This document shows positions 17,988 to 31,984 of a stretch of 38,305 nucleotides of DNA, piece by piece. The first letter of the stretch is position 1. The number at the start of each line of letters is the position of its first letter. The notes below the pieces were generated by a model. It did no database searches. It was not told the origin of the DNA and saw only the letters and a program-made list of their open reading frames with translations. Origin of the DNA: Actinomycetes bacterium (lineage in GTDB: Bacteria > Actinomycetota > Acidimicrobiia > Acidimicrobiales > SZUA-35); NCBI GenBank assembly GCA_024280015.1, contig JAJRQY010000147.1, positions 1-38,305 of the forward strand, written 5' to 3'. The translations under genes and the position numbers were made by a program.

Positions 17988-18638
17988 CTACCGAGTCTCG
18001 CCCGTACCCGATGCGGATGAGCCGCCGACTGCAGTCAGCATGACTGATCCGTCCGAATCGACGTCTCCGGTAAGCACCTGAGTGTCTGAGGGAGCGTCAC
18101 TTTCGCTTCGTCCTTCTGGTTCAACAGTAATAAAGATCGAGGCAGCGTTCTCGAAGATGTACAGGTGATCTTGCCCACCGTTGATGACAATGGAGCCACT
18201 TTCGATGTCGAAGGCTCCGGCGGCGACTGGCTCTGAGTCAACAATTGACCAAACCTGGTAGTCATTGCCGCTCCCCGCTGGGTCGAGGTCTTCGAGCTCG
18301 AGGTGAAGAACACTCTCACCTTCTTCCATAGCCATGGCGTCATCCTCCATGGCGTCGTCGTCAGACAGGGCATCATCGTCGGCCATTGCGTCGTCGTCGG
18401 CCATTGCGTCGTCGTCGGCCATTGCGTCGTCGTCAGCCATGGCATCATCGTCAGCCATGGCATCGTCGTCAGCCATTGCGTCGTCGTCAGACATGGCATC
18501 GTCGTCGGCCACAGCGGCGGCCGTTGTCGGAACGGCTGCCGGTTCTTGGGATGCTGAGTCACTACCTGATCCGCAGGCGACCGCAGTCAGGGTCAGACCG
18601 GCCAGCAGTGCCATTGTCTTCATCCATCGGGTGTTCAT
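17988..18638 (-). CDS. Lipoprotein with Asp-rich repeat and RskA-like C-terminal domain
   Basis: The start is ATG 18638, preceded by AGAGG; the longer frame to 18878 overlaps the next gene. The 216-residue protein opens with a lipoprotein signal ending in 'LTAVAC' (Cys22). Residues about 45-103 are nine copies of the six-residue unit [AS]DDDAM plus a tenth partial one, a very acidic, probably disordered spacer. The last 105 residues, with 'GNDYQVWSIVDSEPVAAGAF' and 'ASIFITVEPEGRSESDAP', resemble the extracytoplasmic C-terminal domain of anti-sigma-K factor RskA. There is no N-terminal sigma-binding region and no adjacent sigma gene, so it is not a normal anti-sigma factor. A surface sensor or decoy role is possible; the function is unknown. 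Confidence 0.85.
   Translation of the reverse strand: MNTRWMKTMALLAGLTLTAVACGSGSDSASQEPAAVPTTAAAVADDDAMSDDDAMADDDAMADDDAMADDDAMADDDAMADDDAMADDDALSDDDAMEDDAMAMEEGESVLHLELEDLDPAGSGNDYQVWSIVDSEPVAAGAFDIESGSIVINGGQDHLYIFENAASIFITVEPEGRSESDAPSDTQVLTGDVDSDGSVMLTAVGGSSASGTGETR
18348..18509 (-). repeat. 18-bp tandem repeat array (9 units) inside the lipoprotein gene
   Basis: Nine contiguous 18-bp units, varying only at a few mostly silent positions, encode [AS]DDDA[ML] on the minus strand. The unit length keeps the reading frame, so copy number can change without frameshift. The Asp codons are almost all GAC, with occasional GAT. Confidence 0.95.
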
Positions 18639-18771
18639 GGTGTTACCTCTTCGAGTTGTTTGGGTTGCCTGGATCCAATCGGCGCAGAAGAAGAAAGTTG
18701 CGGAAATGAAGGTGGGGTTCAGCTCATCTTCAGACCTCTGAACATTCAAGAAACTCGGCACACTGTTGGTT

Positions 18772-20067
18772 ATGAGCCGACAGATCAAGTCAGTAGCAGT
18801 ACTCGGATGTGGAACCATGGGATCGGGCATTGCCGCGGTCAGCGCGGCGGCTGGCTGCAAGGTCTTGATGTTGGACATGACAGCGGAGGCGGTCGAACGG
18901 GGCTTGCAAGCGGTGAAGGAAGAACACCGTCACCTGGTTGTGACCGGGACCTTCGAGCATGACCTGGAGAAGATTGTCGACTACGACTGGATTTGTGAAG
19001 CCATCGTGGAGGACCTAGCCACCAAGCAAGAACTGTTCGCCAAGGTCGAACCGCTACGCAAGGACGGCTCCGTGATCAGCTCCAACACTTCGGGCATTCC
19101 CCTTCGAGACATTTCCGAAGGGATGCCCGAACGCTTCCGCCAGGACGTTGCCATCACCCACTTCTTTAACCCGGTCCAGGTCATGAAGCTGTTCGAGCTG
19201 GTTCCTGGCGAAGACACCACCGATGACGTCGTCGCTGTATTTACGGACTTTGGTGCCAACGATCTGGGCAAGGGAGTGGTCAACGCCAAGGACACGGTCA
19301 ACTTCATCGGCAACCGCATTGGCTGCTTCCTCATGCTCAGCGGCCTGCACATAGCCAAGCCCTTCCTGATGGAGGGAATGAAGCAGGAGTCTGTCGATGC
19401 GGTGCTTGGCCAACCGGTCGGACTGCCGCCAACCGGTCTCTATGGCCTGATCGACCTGATTGGTCTGGACATCATGGACCTGGTCGGTAAGAACCTGAAG
19501 GCCAATCTTCCCGAAGACGACATCGGGTTGGCCTACACCTCATTCCCAGACGTTGAGCAGAGGATGTTGGAACGAGGTCAGCTCGGTCGCAAGGCCAGAG
19601 CCGTTGGCGGTTTTGGCCGGGTTCAGAAGCTGGATGATGGCTCGAAGAAGAAGGAGACCTTTGATCTATTGGAAGAGGAATGGCGTGATGCCCTTGCTCC
19701 TCAGCTAGCCAGTGTGCCGTCTGATCTTGGGGCCATCATGTTCGAGGACTCTATGGAGGGGGAGTTGGCCTGGCAAGTCATTGGCGGCACCCTTCGATAT
19801 GCGGCTGATCTGATACCGGAGATCAGTGACGACGTGGTCAACATCGACCGAGCTATTCGCTGGGGCTTCGCCTGGGTGAAGGGCCCGTTCGAGTTGTTGG
19901 ATGCGGTTGGTCCATTGAGGGTGATTGAGAAAATCGAAGACGAAGGCGGCGAGATCCCAGCCATGTTGCAGGTCTTGCGTGATTCGGATGAAAGTAGCTT
20001 CTACCGAGCCGAGGGATCGGAGTTTTTGGGAATCGACGGTGGATGGCACCCCGTATCCCCGGATTGA
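18772..20067 (+). CDS. 3-hydroxyacyl-CoA dehydrogenase
   Basis: A 431-residue enzyme starting at ATG 18772; a TTG two codons earlier is a weaker choice. The Rossmann motif 'LGCGTMGSGIAA' is at about residues 11-22, then 'ISSNTSGIPLRDISEG' and the catalytic His in 'ITHFFNPVQVMKLFELVPG', followed by 'NAKDTVNFIGNRIGC'. It oxidises 3-hydroxyacyl-CoA to 3-ketoacyl-CoA with NAD+ in fatty acid beta-oxidation. The sequence resembles the dehydrogenase half of the large FadB-like proteins of COG1250, but the enoyl-CoA hydratase half is absent. It is longer than the 280-310-residue single-domain enzymes because of a second C-terminal helical domain. No other beta-oxidation gene is adjacent. Confidence 0.93.
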   Translation: MSRQIKSVAVLGCGTMGSGIAAVSAAAGCKVLMLDMTAEAVERGLQAVKEEHRHLVVTGTFEHDLEKIVDYDWICEAIVEDLATKQELFAKVEPLRKDGSVISSNTSGIPLRDISEGMPERFRQDVAITHFFNPVQVMKLFELVPGEDTTDDVVAVFTDFGANDLGKGVVNAKDTVNFIGNRIGCFLMLSGLHIAKPFLMEGMKQESVDAVLGQPVGLPPTGLYGLIDLIGLDIMDLVGKNLKANLPEDDIGLAYTSFPDVEQRMLERGQLGRKARAVGGFGRVQKLDDGSKKKETFDLLEEEWRDALAPQLASVPSDLGAIMFEDSMEGELAWQVIGGTLRYAADLIPEISDDVVNIDRAIRWGFAWVKGPFELLDAVGPLRVIEKIEDEGGEIPAMLQVLRDSDESSFYRAEGSEFLGIDGGWHPVSPD

Positions 20068-20089: not shown

Positions 20090-21289
20090 TCAGCCTGTTG
20101 GTTCCGCCTCGGGGTCGGACAGGTAATCCTCCAGATCAGCATCGCTGATCGGCCAGGCCTGGGCTGGGAAGGACTGATCGGCCAGGATCGTGCCAGCAGG
20201 GTCGCGAACAACAAGATTGATCCGCGTCCGGCCGACTGCAGTGGCGAGTACCTGGATACTGAACACACCGACTTCGTCGCCATAGCGGACATTCTCAACG
20301 GTGAGAATTGATGAGTCGTCAACCGTTACGTCGATGATGAGGCCCTCAACAGCCGTTGGAGCACAAGATTCTGAATTGAAGGCTTGCATACCAAGCTCGA
20401 TCAGCATTGGTTCCCGCAGGTAGTCGAGGTTGAGTCCCTGATGAATCGTGGCGTAGGGGTCGTCGAAGTCGATGACCAGCTCGTGTTTGGGTGAGCTGCA
20501 TAGCAGTGGCTTTCGGAAGGCCTCAACCTCCAGACCGGTAATCTCCAGATGCTCCAGAGCTAGGTCGCCGGTGAAGCCGGTACCCAGTGGAGTGCGGAAG
20601 AACTGCCCCGTTTCTCTTACCCAGTCTGGCTTGCCTTCACCGTATGAGGTTCGGATCTCTGCGGCCCACCAGTCGATGCCGTCGGACTCAAAGTCGAATT
20701 CGACCAGAACTGGAACGCGGTCTCGATCGCCTACTAGGCGGAGGTTGGTGGATTGTTGCCAGATGCCGGCTTCTCCAAATCCGAGCACGCCATTGCCAAT
20801 GATCTCGCCTTCGTCGATTGTTATTGAGTAGTCGAAGGTCTCTCCGTCATAGGTCAGCTGTATCTGATCGGCCTCGAAACGAACTGTTTTGGTTCGAAAG
20901 CTGAATGGCTTGAGAAGAGTGATCTGGTTTCTGACCTTGGTAGCGACGGGAGTAGGTTCCGTTGTCGTCACTGAGGTAGCGGCCGAACCCGAGGGGTCAT
21001 CCCCAGCTGCGCTGACTGCGGCCAGTGACGGCTCGTTGGGCTGATTGCTGCCTGTGGCGATGCCAACAAAAGCCAATGCCACCACAATGCTGGCTGCTGC
21101 CGCCAAGACCAGGGGCGTTTGGCTCCGGCCAACTGCGACCGTAGTAGTCGAGATGAGAAGTGGTTCTGCAATCAAGTCGTTCGATCGCGTGTTGGGGACC
21201 GTGAGCCGACGTGACTGGAAGGTGAACATGTCTTGCAGGGCATCCTCGAGCGAGCCACTGGAGTCAGCGGGGCTGGTTGTTGACGTCAT
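20090..21289 (-). CDS. Putative membrane anti-sigma factor, novel extracytoplasmic domain
   Basis: A 399-residue single-pass protein whose ATG overlaps the TGA of the ECF sigma gene (ATGA, 21286-21289). Residues 1-57 are a likely cytoplasmic region, 58-80 the membrane helix ('LVLAAAASIVVALAFVGIA'), then a Ser/Thr/Pro linker and about 280 extracytoplasmic residues rich in beta strands. The position and topology are those of an anti-sigma factor, but the N-terminus lacks the HxxxCxxC zinc motif, so the assignment rests on context. The outer part has two Cys ('LLCSSPKH' and 'SESCAP') that could form a disulfide. I do not recognise the outer domain. It could instead be a secreted effector regulated by the sigma factor. 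Confidence 0.7.
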   Translation of the reverse strand: MTSTTSPADSSGSLEDALQDMFTFQSRRLTVPNTRSNDLIAEPLLISTTTVAVGRSQTPLVLAAAASIVVALAFVGIATGSNQPNEPSLAAVSAAGDDPSGSAATSVTTTEPTPVATKVRNQITLLKPFSFRTKTVRFEADQIQLTYDGETFDYSITIDEGEIIGNGVLGFGEAGIWQQSTNLRLVGDRDRVPVLVEFDFESDGIDWWAAEIRTSYGEGKPDWVRETGQFFRTPLGTGFTGDLALEHLEITGLEVEAFRKPLLCSSPKHELVIDFDDPYATIHQGLNLDYLREPMLIELGMQAFNSESCAPTAVEGLIIDVTVDDSSILTVENVRYGDEVGVFSIQVLATAVGRTRINLVVRDPAGTILADQSFPAQAWPISDADLEDYLSDPEAEPTG

Positions 21290-21789
21290 CGGGTGATCTC
21301 CTTGGAGAGTTGTTCTAGGGCCCGGGAGGCGAGGGACTTGACGGTTCCCGGTCGGCAGCCCAGGGATTCAGCGATCTCGGCTTCGGACAAGCCACCGTGA
21401 TAGCGCAGGACGATTACTGCTCGTTGGCGAAAGGGGAGCCTTGAAACCGCGTCGGAGAGCTCGTTGAAGGAGAAATCCACCGAGGCCGACTCGGCCAGAA
21501 GCGGCAACTTGTTCTGCCGGACAGCACTTCGCCGATGCCAGTTTTTGGCCCCGTTTACCAGGGCCGTACGCAAGTAAGCCTCGGGCCGCTCGGCGGTGCC
21601 CCACGTACGGTACATCGTGGTCATGGCCTCTTGGGCGATTTCTTCACCAATGGTCTGATCATGGACAAGGAATGAAGCCAGCTTGAAGGCCCAGAGCCAA
21701 GACTCGGCAAAGAACAGTTCAAAGGTCTGGCAACCACTTGTCCGTTCGTTGGTAGCCGTGTGCACGGCATGAGTATCGCTCACATCCAT
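21286..21789 (-). CDS. ECF-type RNA polymerase sigma factor
   Basis: A 167-residue group IV sigma factor. Region 2 spans about 21-85, with 'TIGEEIAQEAMTTMYRTWG' and 'AYLRTALVNGAKNWHRR'. Region 4 spans about 107-160, with 'LPFRQRAVIVLRYHGGLSEAEIAESLGCRPGTVKSLASRAL', a clear helix-turn-helix; the overall look is SigE-family. It directs polymerase to a small regulon, probably including its own operon. The putative anti-sigma gene is translationally coupled behind it. Upstream, 122 bp away on the same strand, is the HD-GYP/lectin gene. Confidence 0.94.
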   Translation of the reverse strand: MDVSDTHAVHTATNERTSGCQTFELFFAESWLWAFKLASFLVHDQTIGEEIAQEAMTTMYRTWGTAERPEAYLRTALVNGAKNWHRRSAVRQNKLPLLAESASVDFSFNELSDAVSRLPFRQRAVIVLRYHGGLSEAEIAESLGCRPGTVKSLASRALEQLSKEITR

Positions 21790-21911: not shown

Positions 21912-23780
21912 CTAGTCAAATTCAATGACCGTGGCGATGGGATCTGCGCCAGCGCGCCAGCCGCCGTCGATGTAGATCCAAGAGCCAGCGTTCCAGCCGT
22001 CATCCCAGTAACCGTCGGGGGTGACCATTACGCCGATGTTTTGTGGAACCACACCCCCACCGTTGCTTGGCTCACCACCTTGATGTTCATCAGGCGGCAA
22101 CCAGTTCGTGTAGCTAAAGGGCTCACTCGTCAACCACTCGAATGTGCCTTCTTCGGCAATATCGGAGAACCCGAGCCAGACTGCCCGATCTCCACCAAAC
22201 GTAGTGGCGACGAAGGTATTTTCGGCCGCATTGTTGACTGTCACCAAGTGTCCACCCAACGCCTCGGCCTCCGCTTTGGCTTCACTCCAAGTTTGGCCTG
22301 GCGTACCAGCAACATAGGTGTGGCCGTTAAAGGCGATTCCCCCCTGGATAGTGGTCGTTGTTGTTGGTGCGGTAGTCGTTGTCGTTGTCGTTGGTGCGGC
22401 GGTTGTTGTTGGTGCGGTAGTCGTTGTCGTCGTTGGTGCGGCGGTTGAGGTTGGCAGGGATGTGGAAGGTGTAGCTGTTGTCGATGGCCGCTGCCCAGTG
22501 GTGGTAGTTGAAACCCTGCTCGTGCTCGTCTCATCGGTGGTGGGAACAGTGATGGAAGTTGTCGCAATTGTGAAGGTTGTAGTGATACCTCTGTCGACCG
22601 TGGTCGTCGGTGCTTTGCTTGGGACAGGATCTGTTGGCACCGTCGTAGTCGACACGAAGGCCAAAGGTTCTTCGGGTCGTTCCACTATCGGGGGCGAGAT
22701 GGCGATGCTGGTGGCGGCAACGACGGCTCCGGTGACGGCAATTGCTGGTGTCTGGATGACCGCTGTACCAATCTGGCCAACTGGGATGTCGCTGAGCCAT
22801 GCCAAAGGTCCGAAGGTCCAACGCTTACCGAGTGAGACATTCAGGAATGCTCGAACCACATCAGGATCGAACTGCGAGCCAGCACAATCGACAAGTTCTT
22901 GTCGCGCGGCTTGGACCGACATTGCTTCCTTGTAGGAACGTTTGGCGGTGATGACGTCATAGGCGTCGGCGACAGCGGTGATTCGCCCGGCCAGAGAGAT
23001 TTCTGTTCCCGCCAGTCCGAGAGGGTAGCCATTGCCATCCCATCGTTCATGGTGCTCGCTCGCGGCCAGGATCCAGTCGCCGAGCCAACCCGACAGTGGT
23101 TCAAGGAAGGAGAAGCTCGCGCCGGGGTGTTCCTTGAGTTGTTCCCATTCGTCGGCGGTAAGAGCCTCTTGTTTGTTGAGTATCTCTGTTGGGATGGTGA
23201 GCTTGCCCATGTCGTGGAGCAGGACGCCCCAGGCCAGACGAAGCCGGTCACTGTCGGAGAGGCCCATTTCTTCCGCGATAAGGTCTGCGTTGGCCCGGAC
23301 TCGTTCGGCGTGGCCGCGGGTTAGGCGGTCGTGATGGCTAAGCAGGGAGACGAGTTCCAGGGCATGGGTTGCTGCTTGGTTCGTGTCTGAGCCCAGTCCG
23401 TTGGCTCCGATCTCGTCGAGGCGTTTTTCGAGCTGGCGGACACTGCCTGCTCTGAGAGCGAGACTGAATCGTGATGGTGCTTGGTCGGGGAAGACCAGAC
23501 TGAGGTCGAAAAGTGTGGCCAGCGGCAGGAGTCGTCGGGTGGCTTTGTCGACGAGGATGGAAACGGCAGCTCCAATGGGAGCGGCCTGTGAGATCCAGAG
23601 GAGGAGCCCAACCTTGCCCGGTGGGTGGTAGAGCAGGTCACCGATCTGTCGGAGAATGGTGATGGACGCCCCGAGTGGGATGAGAAAGGCGAGGGCGCGA
23701 ATGAGAAGGGCAATGCCTCTTTGGCTATGCCAGGATCCGATTCCCGATTCTGTCGCCCCTCGGGTTGGCTCACTATTCAC
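21912..23780 (-). CDS. Transmembrane HD-GYP phosphodiesterase with C-terminal C-type lectin domain
   Basis: A 622-residue protein with, in order: two membrane segments (about 23-50 and 57-77) followed by basic KATRR; a cytoplasmic HD-GYP domain (about 138-315) with HDMGK at 189-193, HHERWDGNGYP at 243-253 and 'AGRITAVADAYDVIT' at 264-278; a third membrane segment (about 339-362); a Thr/Pro/Ala linker (377-478); and a C-type lectin-like domain (485-622) with 'HTYVAGTPGQTWSEAKAEAE', 'LGGHLVTVNNAAEN', 'VWLGFSD', 'YTNW', a GEPSN loop resembling EPN and a 'GYWDD' counterpart of WND. HD-GYP domains hydrolyse cyclic-di-GMP (family knowledge). By topology the lectin lies outside. The lectin has no Cys. 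It is probably a glycan or ligand receptor controlling c-di-GMP. Confidence 0.9.
   Translation of the reverse strand: MNSEPTRGATESGIGSWHSQRGIALLIRALAFLIPLGASITILRQIGDLLYHPPGKVGLLLWISQAAPIGAAVSILVDKATRRLLPLATLFDLSLVFPDQAPSRFSLALRAGSVRQLEKRLDEIGANGLGSDTNQAATHALELVSLLSHHDRLTRGHAERVRANADLIAEEMGLSDSDRLRLAWGVLLHDMGKLTIPTEILNKQEALTADEWEQLKEHPGASFSFLEPLSGWLGDWILAASEHHERWDGNGYPLGLAGTEISLAGRITAVADAYDVITAKRSYKEAMSVQAARQELVDCAGSQFDPDVVRAFLNVSLGKRWTFGPLAWLSDIPVGQIGTAVIQTPAIAVTGAVVAATSIAISPPIVERPEEPLAFVSTTTVPTDPVPSKAPTTTVDRGITTTFTIATTSITVPTTDETSTSRVSTTTTGQRPSTTATPSTSLPTSTAAPTTTTTTAPTTTAAPTTTTTTTAPTTTTTIQGGIAFNGHTYVAGTPGQTWSEAKAEAEALGGHLVTVNNAAENTFVATTFGGDRAVWLGFSDIAEEGTFEWLTSEPFSYTNWLPPDEHQGGEPSNGGGVVPQNIGVMVTPDGYWDDGWNAGSWIYIDGGWRAGADPIATVIEFD
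22344..22480 (-). repeat. Low-complexity Thr/Pro-coding tract
   Basis: Imperfect GTT/GTC/GTG-rich repeats (plus strand) encode runs of Thr with APT and AAPT units, forming the linker between the third membrane segment and the lectin domain. It is an internal coding repeat, not a separate element. Confidence 0.8.
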
Positions 23781-23900: not shown

Positions 23901-25334
23901 TCAGGCTGTCGTCGTGCTGGACCCAAAGGTCGGAGGCGCAGCCGTGGTCGTTGGGGCCGTTGTCGTCGTTGTTGGGGCCGTTGTCGTCGTGCTGGCTGTG
24001 GTTGTTGGGGCCGTGGTGGTTGGGGCGGTTGTCGTTGCTGGCCTGGTGGTTGTCTGGCGACGAGTTGTTGGTGGAGCAGTGCTCGTGGCTTGTGTGGTCT
24101 CGGTTGTGGAAGAGGTGGTTGTTGGGTCGGGTCGTTTTGTCGTCGGGACACTCGTTGTTGTCTCGAGTTCGGAAGTGGTCGTGAGTTGGGCAGTGGTTGA
24201 CGGCGCCCCTGTCGTAGTCGTTGTTTCAACGAAGGGTAAGGGCTCAGATACTTCGGTTGAAGGAATAGTGTTCGCCCCGACCAGAGCAACGATTGCGCCG
24301 GCTGCGGCAACAGCAGAGGTCTGAGCGCTGGCCGCTCCCAAGGCTGCGAACCACGCGAACGGAGCACGTCGTTCTTTGGGCTCGGGCAGTCCGGTGAGGA
24401 ACGCTCGGACGACACTTGGGTCAAATTGTGTACCAGAACACGCGGCGATTTCGGCCCGGGCATCGGCCGGTGACATCGATTCCTTGTAGGAGCGCTCCGA
24501 GGTGATGGCGTCGTAGGAATCGGCGACAGCAGCAATCCGACCGGCCAGGGAGATGTTGGCTCCTTGTAGGCCAAGCGGATATCCGGTTCCGTCCCAGCGC
24601 TCGTGGTGCTCCTTGGCTGCTAAGCGCCACTCACCAAGCCAGATCGCTAATGGATCCAGCAGTTCCGAGCCAGCGCTGGGGTGATTCATCACCACTTGTC
24701 GTTCAACAATACTTAGCTCGCCCTTCTTGCTGAGAATGTCTGATGGGATGGCGAGCATGCCCATGTCATGGAGAAGCATGGCCCAGGACAACCGCTCCCG
24801 TTCCAAGGCTGGTAGGTTCAGCTCTTCGGCGATGACCTTTGAATGGGTCAGGACACGCACCGCGTGACCCCGTGTGCTCCGATAGTGGACACTCAAAAGA
24901 ACAGCGAGTTCGAGAGCGGTAATTGCTGCTTCGTTCTCGGTAAGCCCGAGTCCAACGCTTCTGACCTCACTCAGCTTTTCTCGGAGCTGTTGTCGGGTAC
25001 TTGTGCGCCTGGCGACATCCATCCGTGAGGGAGCGTTGTCGGGGAAGACAAGATCGAGTTCGAGCAGCATGGCAAGGGGAAGTGCTCGTCTGGTCGGGGT
25101 GCTGGCCAAGACGGCAACGCCAGCCCCAAGAGGAGCGGCCTGCGCCACCCAGACAAGTAAGCCCAGCCATCCAGGTGGGTGGTACAAGATGCCACCGACC
25201 ACGAGTAGAACGAGCAGAGAGACAAGGACAGGAATGGCAAACACGAGGGCTCGAACAACGGCAGACAAGCCATTGTGCGATTTCCACATGCGAGCTTCAG
25301 GCTCGTTATTCCTAGGGGGTCGATCCGCAGACAT
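23901..25334 (-). CDS. Transmembrane HD-GYP domain protein with Thr-rich tail, lectin-less paralog
   Basis: A 477-residue paralog of the next gene; the two align without gaps over about the first 315 residues. It has membrane segments near 25-50 and 57-77, HD-GYP motifs at the same positions (HD 189-190, HHERWDGTGYP 243-253, 'AGRIAAVADSYDAIT' 264-278), a third membrane segment near 331-355 and a Thr/Pro-rich extracytoplasmic tail. It ends after 'GSSTTTA' with no lectin and no lectin remnant in the following 120 bp. HDxGK reads HDMGM, so a Lys conserved in active HD-GYP enzymes is Met; activity may be altered. It probably arose by tandem duplication and may act as a partner or heterodimer subunit of the lectin-bearing copy. 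Confidence 0.9.
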   Translation of the reverse strand: MSADRPPRNNEPEARMWKSHNGLSAVVRALVFAIPVLVSLLVLLVVGGILYHPPGWLGLLVWVAQAAPLGAGVAVLASTPTRRALPLAMLLELDLVFPDNAPSRMDVARRTSTRQQLREKLSEVRSVGLGLTENEAAITALELAVLLSVHYRSTRGHAVRVLTHSKVIAEELNLPALERERLSWAMLLHDMGMLAIPSDILSKKGELSIVERQVVMNHPSAGSELLDPLAIWLGEWRLAAKEHHERWDGTGYPLGLQGANISLAGRIAAVADSYDAITSERSYKESMSPADARAEIAACSGTQFDPSVVRAFLTGLPEPKERRAPFAWFAALGAASAQTSAVAAAGAIVALVGANTIPSTEVSEPLPFVETTTTTGAPSTTAQLTTTSELETTTSVPTTKRPDPTTTSSTTETTQATSTAPPTTRRQTTTRPATTTAPTTTAPTTTASTTTTAPTTTTTAPTTTAAPPTFGSSTTTA

Positions 25335-30019: not shown

Positions 30020-31984
30020 CTAGGGCATGGTGCCCGTATTGACCAGGTTTTCTGGAGAGTCGGCAAAGGCAATGAGCAGACGGGCAACACTCATTCCCTG
30101 GGCCCGGCGTCCGAGCCAATACTCGATTCCCCCGGCATCGCCTGGACGGTCAAGCACGTTCTGGTACAGCCCATCAATGAGCTCGGCATCGGTTGGATTT
30201 TCACCGTACGCGGTCCGGAACTCGGGGAAGGTGGTCCATTGAGCAGCCATCTGATTCATGGACAGACCGTTCTGCTTCAGCCCAACCCAATACTCGAAAC
30301 CACCGGCATCGGGGGCTCGCCCAAAGACCGCCTGATAGAGACGAAGCACCTTGGAGTGATCAGAGTCCAGCGGTTGGCTGGTTTCAGTAATGCTGATGTT
30401 CTCGACAGAGTCAGCGAAGGCAATCAACAAGTCCTCGACACTGAGGTCGGTTGATAGTCGGCCGACCCAGAACGCAATACCGCCGGCGTCACCGGGACGG
30501 CCAAGCACGTTTTCATAGAGAAGGTTGACTAGATCTTCATTGGTTGGATTCTCGCCGTAGGTCGCCTTGTACTCCGCACTCTGACGGAAGTCTGAAGCGA
30601 TCTGTACTAGGGAAGTGCCGCTCCGAGCCAGACCATTCCAATAGCCAAATCCGGTGGCATCGGGCTCTCGAGCGAACACGGCACGATAGAGGCGAAGGAT
30701 CTGATCTTCGCCAGGGCCATTGGTTGGGAACGTCGTCGGTCCAGGAGGAGGAATATCGTTTAATCCGATAACACGGGCTGGACGGTTGGAGTTGTTGTGA
30801 GTGCCGTTGCCTAGCTGGCCCTCGACATTGCTTCCCCAACAACGAACCGAGTCGTCGCTCTGCAACGCGCAGGTGTGGCGGGAACCGGAACTGATCTGGG
30901 TTGCAGTAGTCATACCGATGACGACTACCGGTGAGGCCGAGGCGTTGGTGTCGGCGTTGCCGAGGCGACCATCGAAGTTCAAGCCCCAGCAGTTGACGTG
31001 GCCATCACTGAGGCGCACACAGGTGTGGTGGGTGCCAGCACTCACCTCTTCAGCCGACGTTACTCCAGCAACGGCGAGGGGAACACCGGAATGACCGAGA
31101 CCATCGACTCCAAGCTGGAGGTCGGCATTCAGGCCCCAACACTTGACCGATCCGCTTACCACGGCACATGAGTGCCAAGCCCCGACAGAAATGTCCGATG
31201 CCCCTGTGAGGCCATCGACGATGACTGGAGTCAGTGAGACGCCAATGATTCCAGCGCCTCGACCGAGCTGGCCAGCGTGATCATTCCCCCAACAGGCTGC
31301 TGTACCGTCGCTGAGGAGAGCACAAGAATGAGAGAATCCGGCGGAGATCTTGGTGGCGGTTGTGATGCCGACCGCATCGACAGGGACATTTGAGTTGACC
31401 GGTGTCCCATCGACCGGGTCCCCGTTCCCAAGACGCCCATTGCCGTTGTTGCCCCAGCATTTCACCGATCCGTCGGACAGGCGGGCGCAGGTGTGATCTT
31501 GACCAACGGCGACTTCAACCGCGGTAGAAATACCTGACACAGTCACCGGAGTGAGGGAGTCGGCGTTGCTGCCATTGCCAAGTTGTCCGAACTCATTGTC
31601 GCCCCAGCACTTGATGGTCTGGTCAGAAACGGCGGCGCATGTGTGGCCTCGTCCTGAGCCAATGCCGACAATGTTGGACAAGCCAGCAACGGCCACTGGT
31701 GCTACCGAGCTGTTTGTCGTGCCGTCGCCGAGTTGACCGTCGGTGTTCGAGCCCCAGCACAGGGCTGTCCCATCCGCCAGGACAACGCAGGTGTTTGTTT
31801 CGCCCGAATTCACGGAGGTGATATCGAAGTTTGAGAAGGCAATTACTTCAGGTTCTACCTCCGCAGCCATTGCCGAGGGGGCAGCCATGCCGAGCGTGAG
31901 AAGGCCAAGAACAAGTCCGAAGACAGATCGCCGGACCCGTGGCCGGTTGCGCCTCGAGGATCGTTCCGCTGTCAGTAACTTCAT
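30020..31984 (-). CDS. Secreted seven-repeat RCC1 propeller protein with C-terminal DUF4214 domains
   Basis: A 654-residue exported protein. An N-terminal Arg-rich signal peptide ends near 'SAMA-AE' (about residue 41). Seven RCC1-type repeats follow (about 45-415), each with 'CWG.N..GQLGNG'-like text and nearly all with a preceding 'HTCA'-like Cys, so most blades have a Cys pair that could form a disulfide. Seven repeats are enough for a closed beta-propeller. After a Pro-rich hinge, residues about 428-650 hold DUF4214 units, with 'ILRLYRAVFAREPDATGFGYW' and 'VLRLYQAVFGRAPDAGGFEYW' and intermediate 'NVLGRPGDAGGIAFW' half-repeats. DUF4214 occurs in large secreted or S-layer-associated proteins; function unknown. 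No sorting signal is seen. Confidence 0.92.
   Translation of the reverse strand: MKLLTAERSSRRNRPRVRRSVFGLVLGLLTLGMAAPSAMAAEVEPEVIAFSNFDITSVNSGETNTCVVLADGTALCWGSNTDGQLGDGTTNSSVAPVAVAGLSNIVGIGSGRGHTCAAVSDQTIKCWGDNEFGQLGNGSNADSLTPVTVSGISTAVEVAVGQDHTCARLSDGSVKCWGNNGNGRLGNGDPVDGTPVNSNVPVDAVGITTATKISAGFSHSCALLSDGTAACWGNDHAGQLGRGAGIIGVSLTPVIVDGLTGASDISVGAWHSCAVVSGSVKCWGLNADLQLGVDGLGHSGVPLAVAGVTSAEEVSAGTHHTCVRLSDGHVNCWGLNFDGRLGNADTNASASPVVVIGMTTATQISSGSRHTCALQSDDSVRCWGSNVEGQLGNGTHNNSNRPARVIGLNDIPPPGPTTFPTNGPGEDQILRLYRAVFAREPDATGFGYWNGLARSGTSLVQIASDFRQSAEYKATYGENPTNEDLVNLLYENVLGRPGDAGGIAFWVGRLSTDLSVEDLLIAFADSVENISITETSQPLDSDHSKVLRLYQAVFGRAPDAGGFEYWVGLKQNGLSMNQMAAQWTTFPEFRTAYGENPTDAELIDGLYQNVLDRPGDAGGIEYWLGRRAQGMSVARLLIAFADSPENLVNTGTMP

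Follow-up and report, generated by a model that had tools for sequence, protein, structure and literature searches.

The putative receptor gene and its parts

The window, a stretch of 38,305 nucleotides from a genome of the Acidimicrobiales, contains on its minus strand an open reading frame that runs from nt 23780 to nt 21912 and encodes a putative membrane receptor (Table 1). The first-pass annotation, which did not name a strand, described an HD-GYP phosphodiesterase fused through the membrane to a C-type lectin-like domain (CTLD), and the parts that it listed are recovered. The two N-terminal membrane segments appear as hydropathy peaks. The HD-GYP domain is matched by Pfam HD_5, contains both the HD and the GYP motif, and its model matches HD-GYP structures. 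The third membrane segment is also seen as a peak, but a weaker one. The Thr/Pro linker, put at about 100 residues, is slightly longer than that, with 48 Thr and 14 Pro among 111 residues.

Table 1. Positions of the gene, its predicted parts, the adjacent paralogue and representatives of two further head types. Positions refer to the window unless a locus is named.
Feature	Position	Strand	Remarks
CTLD-headed HD-GYP predicted receptor gene	21912..23780	-	622 aa; GTG start; stop included
Membrane segment 1 (predicted)	23652..23708	-	residues 25-43; hydropathy 2.16; within modelled helix 12-47
Membrane segment 2 (predicted)	23550..23606	-	residues 59-77; hydropathy 1.91; within modelled helix 55-94
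HD-GYP domain	22857..23351	-	residues 144-308; Pfam HD_5, E 7.7e-36
Membrane segment 3 (predicted)	22686..22772	-	residues 337-365; weaker hydropathy (1.65-1.74); low model confidence
Thr/Pro/Ala/Ser stalk	22356..22685	-	residues 366-475; ~110 residues
C-type-lectin-like domain	21915..22355	-	residues 476-622; EPS 570-572, WDD 592-594; no cysteine
Tandem paralogue	23901..25334	-	477 aa; module and stalk, no head; HDMGM for HDMGK
Representatives of heads J and R	L077:975-2072, L082:5877-6920, L087:5035-6024		HD-GYP family members

Pfam Lectin_C matches residues 496–567 with E 3e-9 and 38 bits against a cut-off of 22.6; the match spans profile positions 3–78 of 107, the final part of the profile being unmatched. 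The sole NCBIfam result for the protein is a match to NosR-type HD-GYP regulators, far below the cut-off. A second CTLD-headed copy with the same architecture and 62% identity lies on another contig (C15) of the same genome. This recurrence excludes a chance fusion of HD-GYP and CTLD.

The HD-GYP module

The HD dyad, the HDxGK lysine, the GYP motif and the metal-ligand positions are complete in the window protein, which has H157, H189/D190, K193, H218, H243, H244, GYP at residues 251–253, and D272. We take H157, H189/D190, H218, H243, H244 and D272 to be the metal ligands. Conservation of these positions in the aligned members is nearly invariant: H189, D190, H218, H243, H244 and GYP are found in 71 of 71, H157 and D272 in 70, and K193 in 69.

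A model of residues 1–375 (pLDDT 78.4) contains long helices at residues 12–47 and 55–94, an HD-GYP domain modelled with confidence and, at residues 345–361, a helix of low confidence (pLDDT about 34–40). The model matches the HD-GYP structures of PA4781, DvhD with c-di-GMP, and PmGH. By sequence, the best matches in the PDB are V-cGAP3 (5z7c), PmGH (4mcw) and PA4781 (4r8z). The first of these is a 3′3′-cGAMP phosphodiesterase, and for that reason c-di-GMP as the presumed substrate stays a proposal. The genome contains 21 matches to GGDEF and 5 to HD_5; a search of the genome for a PilZ domain as a candidate c-di-GMP effector found none.

Membrane topology

The third membrane segment decides on which side of the membrane the stalk and the CTLD would lie. 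The segment in the window protein is weakly hydrophobic and poorly modelled, and it is not preceded by an excess of positive charge. If it does not span the membrane, the linker and the CTLD would be cytoplasmic. The family as a whole argues against such an arrangement. After the HD-GYP domain, a 19-mer with hydropathy of at least 1.5 is present in 63 of 70 members; the lowest-scoring row is one with a masked stretch read as X. The best 19-mer carries no charge in 69 of the 70. The net charge before the segment exceeds that after it in 68 members and equals it in the other 2. The mean net charge is +0.3 before and −3.0 after the segment (−1 and −3 in the window protein), so the bias is due mostly to negative charge on the C-terminal side; positive charge ahead of the segment is slight. 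Moreover, many of the head families are usual in secreted or surface proteins. These features favor, and do not prove, that the third segment truly spans the membrane and places the head outside, and a C-terminus that stays in the cytoplasm appears highly improbable.

The lectin-like head

The structure prediction that the first-pass annotation had suggested as a check on the lectin part gave a model in accord with its claim. The last 149 residues were modelled with AlphaFold2 on an alignment with 18 CTLD relatives from viral contigs; the mean pLDDT is 67.6, lower in the second half (53–71). In a Foldseek search of this model against the PDB, lectin domains of CD23 rank first (E 1.7e-7, TM-score 0.63 by query), and 395 chains match at E ≤ 0.001. 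VIA-align superimposes it on ASGR1 with the best Z, 13.9, over 124 residues at an rmsd of 3.3. Together with the Lectin_C match, the model assigns the CTLD fold to the C-terminal domain with moderate confidence.

Canonical Ca2+-dependent sugar-binding C-type lectins have conserved disulfides. Neither CTLD-headed copy of the genome can form them, there being no cysteine after residue 365 in either. The loop motifs claimed for the head are present as EPS and WDD in both copies; they do not have the canonical form, EPN or QPD plus WND, that is the signature of Ca2+ site II. According to a review (PMC7618208), Ca2+-dependent binding of sugars at this site depends on the EPN or QPD motif, and WND couples the site to the CTLD core. 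In the alignment of the viral relatives (A5), read by eye, 17 of 18 rows have EPN and L233 has QPD; 17 of 18 have WND, the exception being L240. Two bacterial CTLDs from other genomes, L115 and L117, read EPN and WND, and L203 reads EPN without WND. With EPS, WDD and no cysteine, Ca-dependent sugar binding is not implied for the window head. Ca2+ binding by this head may be different from the canonical kind or absent, and a sugar as its ligand is a guess.

A family with different heads

Of 39 genomes in the taxonomic family, 33 contain the membrane HD-GYP module at E ≤ 1e-10, and even the poorest of their top matches reaches E 1.3e-48. In the class, at least 51 matches at E ≤ 5.1e-103, nearly all covering the module, were found in at least 38 of 340 genomes; up to 5 candidates per genome were scored, which makes these counts lower bounds. 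Among the 80 named loci listed, at least seven (L123–L129) have the whole module. Their records are named as Actinomycetes, Actinomycetota, Acidimicrobiales, Acidimicrobiaceae and Thermoleophilia bacteria, and their C-termini, judged by eye, are repeat-type, R-type, other, or none.

Within the genome of the window, a search with the whole protein finds five places, the same five as the HD_5 matches. They are the window gene, its 62%-identical CTLD-headed copy, a member on contig C120 whose head a local profile assigns to the Ig-like (Big_9) type, the tandem neighbor without a head, and a distant HD-GYP. Four of the five belong to the receptor family.

The sample of heads consists of 80 fetched stretches and the window, which gave 84 open frames and 78 C-termini of at least 60 residues. 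Pfam was run on 73 of these; left out were L085, L078 and L068, whose stretches run out inside the stalk, the head-less window neighbor, and L110, the distant HD-GYP. At E ≤ 0.001 the 73 C-termini match nineteen Pfam families. Big_9 is found in 30, Cadherin_5 in 22, LTD in 17, Pentapeptide in 10, Lectin_C in 2 and FG-GAP_3 in 1, with 10 of the 73 reaching the end of their stretch and some heads therefore incomplete. The CshA repeat is also among the head types. Two further heads recur, J (about 175 aa; representatives L077, L082) and R (about 150 aa; representative L087); these three representatives match no Pfam family over the cut-off and have one match below it (E 0.036). Four members (the window neighbor, L088, L084 and L044) stop in the stalk at a stop codon and have no head.

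On a quick maximum-likelihood tree of 71 modules, on which 24 of 68 inner branches are starred, eight head classes require 25 changes, against a possible minimum of 7; the classes "array" and "other" are mixed, and several classes come from local profiles. The number is 21 when four rows whose stretches run out before any head are not counted. Shuffled head labels give a mean of 46.2 changes, and none of 200 shuffles was as low as 25. This indicates that heads are inherited for a while yet are repeatedly changed. The two CTLD copies lie near a J-headed member of a congener (F002, whose module is 63% identical to that of the window protein over residues 7–330) and a head-less pair, and are not resolved as sole sisters. 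The occurrence of the same membrane HD-GYP module with many outer heads suggests an undescribed set of surface-recognition receptors.

Much of this could also be expected of a membrane-anchored adhesin or tether, whose HD-GYP domain is constitutively active and gains nothing from the fusion except its place at the membrane. Many of the heads are adhesin-like (Big_9, cadherin, CshA repeat, FG-GAP), the stalk is long and rich in Thr and Pro, and the members that end in a stalk without a head are at home in such a scheme. However, although the heads change, almost every aligned member retains an intact enzyme core. This conservation fits a selected signaling output, yet it would be expected of a constitutive enzyme too, and we regard an adhesin or tether as an unlikely but serious alternative.

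Rarity and origin of the lectin head

In the samples searched, the CTLD-headed HD-GYP is found in this genome only. CTLD-bearing genomes, with the window genome counted each time, number 5 of 345 in the class, 4 of 396 in the phylum, and 2 of 397 in the order; in the congener G036 a CTLD was not found. No HD-GYP was found at E 1e-3 beside the CTLDs of other genomes in seven loci that extend about 1.5 kb to either side of the CTLD, which for L118, L204 and L205 is shorter than the whole frame.

Relatives of the window CTLD were found at 59 loci on viral contigs with a five-row alignment, the best of which share about 45% identity with it over roughly 90 residues. Repeating the search yielded 35 distinct fragments, and a viral scan with a two-row alignment confirmed nothing. 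No HD-GYP was found in the 59 loci at E 1e-3. The proteins with these EPN/WND-type CTLDs on the viral contigs (L206–L264) are in many cases about 300–360 aa long. In a fold search of BFVD, most of the rows that carry a name are animal-virus C-type lectins, at E 1e-4 or weaker; they say nothing on the origin of the head.

The viral relatives, and the rarity of CTLDs in the class together with their apparent absence from the congener, would be in keeping with a head taken from a phage or another mobile source and used for phage-host or cell-cell recognition, for example as a decoy or in kin recognition, rather than for environmental sensing. The base composition of the CTLD is nevertheless close to that of the rest of the gene (GC 0.574 and 0.600), with GC3 equally unremarkable, and a recent foreign origin was rejected on this ground. 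CTLD folds are frequent targets of diversity-generating retroelements. The genome has no match to RVT_1 (reverse transcriptase), hence no sign of such an element, and the head was rejected as a target; at 96.6% completeness the assembly could miss such a gene. We consider a recognition head of phage or mobile origin very unlikely. Spread by plasmids was also rejected: 562 plasmid records matched the whole protein in tblastn, with identity below 60% throughout and no single place that reached 80% coverage of the query.

The neighborhood and the head-less paralogue

The adjacent gene (Table 1) encodes a paralogue with M at the position of K193. On the tree it forms a starred head-less pair (K193M) with the syntenic gene L088 of the same-genus genome G036 (H157R, K193M). 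The head-less members L044 and L084 keep both H157 and K193, so head loss is not always paired with loss of the lysine. Head-less paralogues of the HDMGM type may be catalytically altered regulators.

Such a paralogue, lacking the HDxGK lysine, could be a receptor for c-di-GMP and not an enzyme. It lends some color to control in the opposite direction, from the inside out, in which c-di-GMP bound to the HD-GYP domain would govern the display, clustering or release of the head. LapD, which controls an adhesin, is an analogue, and a membrane HD-GYP fused to adhesin-like heads would suit this control. Retention of the catalytic positions in nearly all aligned members speaks against it, and we think inside-out control rather improbable.

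In G036 the flanking genes have the same order as in the window; the place itself is taken by a head-less HDxGM-type gene and, after it, another element. This stretch yielded neither a second receptor gene nor relatives of lspA, of the PadR gene or of the ECF sigma pair. In the congener, the frame that separates the head-less HD-GYP gene from the gene for 3-hydroxyacyl-CoA dehydrogenase (L088:4324-5950) resembles, by eye, an element of an HNH-endonuclease repeat family. In another genus (L081), a Big_9-headed member in the opposite orientation adjoins the same alpha/beta-hydrolase and Cys/Met-metabolism genes.

The ECF sigma gene with its neighbor (20090–21789), lspA and the PadR gene were considered as operon partners and rejected: none has a relative at E 1e-10 in the 80 stretches around other members. 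At 20090–21789 the ECF sigma factor gene overlaps a gene for a 399-aa protein without a Pfam match, which, with a hydrophobic segment near residues 60–80 and a Thr-rich part seen by eye, is perhaps an anti-sigma-like partner. Elsewhere in the window, 17988–18878 encodes a protein with an RskA_C anti-sigma domain, and 30020–31984 encodes a 654-aa protein that combines RCC1 repeats with DUF4214 repeats, a combination that seems unusual.

Degenerate 45-base repeats occur in both stalks and form one family of 10 copies, the nine others being 60–84% identical to the reference. As a suggestion, this repeat DNA could be the joint at which heads are exchanged.

A proposed surface receptor

We consider it fairly probable that the protein is a receptor in which the outer head sets what is bound and the inner HD-GYP domain alters c-di-GMP. 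The domains, the motifs, the topology signature and the diversity of heads support this reading at the level of sequence. That the head binds something outside, and that binding changes the activity of the HD-GYP domain, we infer, as we do the ligand, c-di-GMP as the substrate, the direction of the effect and the clustering mechanism.

In the proposed mechanism, a cytoplasmic HD-GYP phosphodiesterase would be anchored by the N-terminal two-helix hairpin. The third membrane segment would be followed by the long Thr/Pro stalk, which could cross the cell wall, and by the CTLD outside. A glycan or protein on a surface, a particle or another cell would bind the head and thereby cluster or pull on the receptor. 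This would change HD-GYP activity and alter c-di-GMP locally. Different heads on the same module would confer different specificities. It speaks against the receptor reading that a flexible stalk of some 110 residues transmits conformational change poorly; because the stalk looks flexible, clustering or tension is proposed and not a rigid lever. Further points against it are that no PilZ domain was found, that the CTLD has neither the canonical loop motifs nor cysteines, that the third membrane segment is weak, that the best PDB match by sequence is a 3′3′-cGAMP enzyme, that two other head-less members keep the lysine, and that the CTLD head was seen in a single genome of the samples.

More tentatively, the receptor may belong to a modular family of Acidimicrobiia and some relatives, in which heads (lectin-like, Ig/cadherin, lamin-tail, pentapeptide and at least two undescribed kinds) are exchangeable, contact with different surfaces or cells is read directly as a change of c-di-GMP, the stalk DNA serves as the exchange joint, and the head-less paralogues lacking the lysine are altered partners. 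With its constant enzyme module and changing outer heads, such a family would be a natural system in which to study how Actinobacteria convert surface contact into a second-messenger change and what each head recognizes. The CTLD-headed member is a good first test case, since binding assays for CTLDs exist.

Comparison with known systems

The window protein shares the domain fold and the HD and GYP motif residues with the phosphodiesterases V-cGAP3 (5z7c), PmGH (4mcw), PA4781 (4r8z) and DvhD (9rbz). The regulatory parts of these four proteins, as we understand them, precede the HD-GYP domain, and we know of none among them with a C-terminal membrane segment and an outside head.

With CTLDs such as those of CD23, ASGR1 and SP-D, and with bacterial and phage CTLDs, the head has the fold and the core motifs in common, and it scores over the Lectin_C cut-off. 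It differs from them in the lack of cysteine and of the canonical EPN/QPD and WND, and in being joined, as predicted, to a cyclic-dinucleotide enzyme across the membrane.

The usual c-di-GMP receptor has its sensor ahead of the enzyme, and many of these outside sensors have no known ligand. An outside sensor joined to a c-di-GMP enzyme is common to the window protein and to the 7TMR-DISM and other GGDEF, EAL or HD-GYP receptors. The 7TMR-DISMED2 domain is predicted to sense carbohydrates, according to a review whose main text has no mention of "lectin" (PMC8846402). In contrast to the 7TMR-DISM receptors, the window protein has its head at the C-terminus, behind the enzyme. Outside sensors on HD-GYP receptors are already known; an exchangeable C-terminal head, a CTLD especially, was not found described. 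The first-pass annotation knew of no described receptor with this architecture. Its statement stands for the literature searched, namely the titles and abstract beginnings of the listed results on HD-GYP with lectin, cadherin or repeat, on c-di-GMP with carbohydrate and on surface sensing, with the qualification that the protein belongs to a wider HD-GYP family with different heads.

A parallel in the order of parts is found in another enzyme class. In PknB-type kinases the cytoplasmic enzyme comes first, followed by a membrane segment and by C-terminal extracellular binding domains. The window protein has the same order, and differs from these kinases in the class of the enzyme, the N-terminal hairpin, the Thr/Pro stalk and the variable heads.
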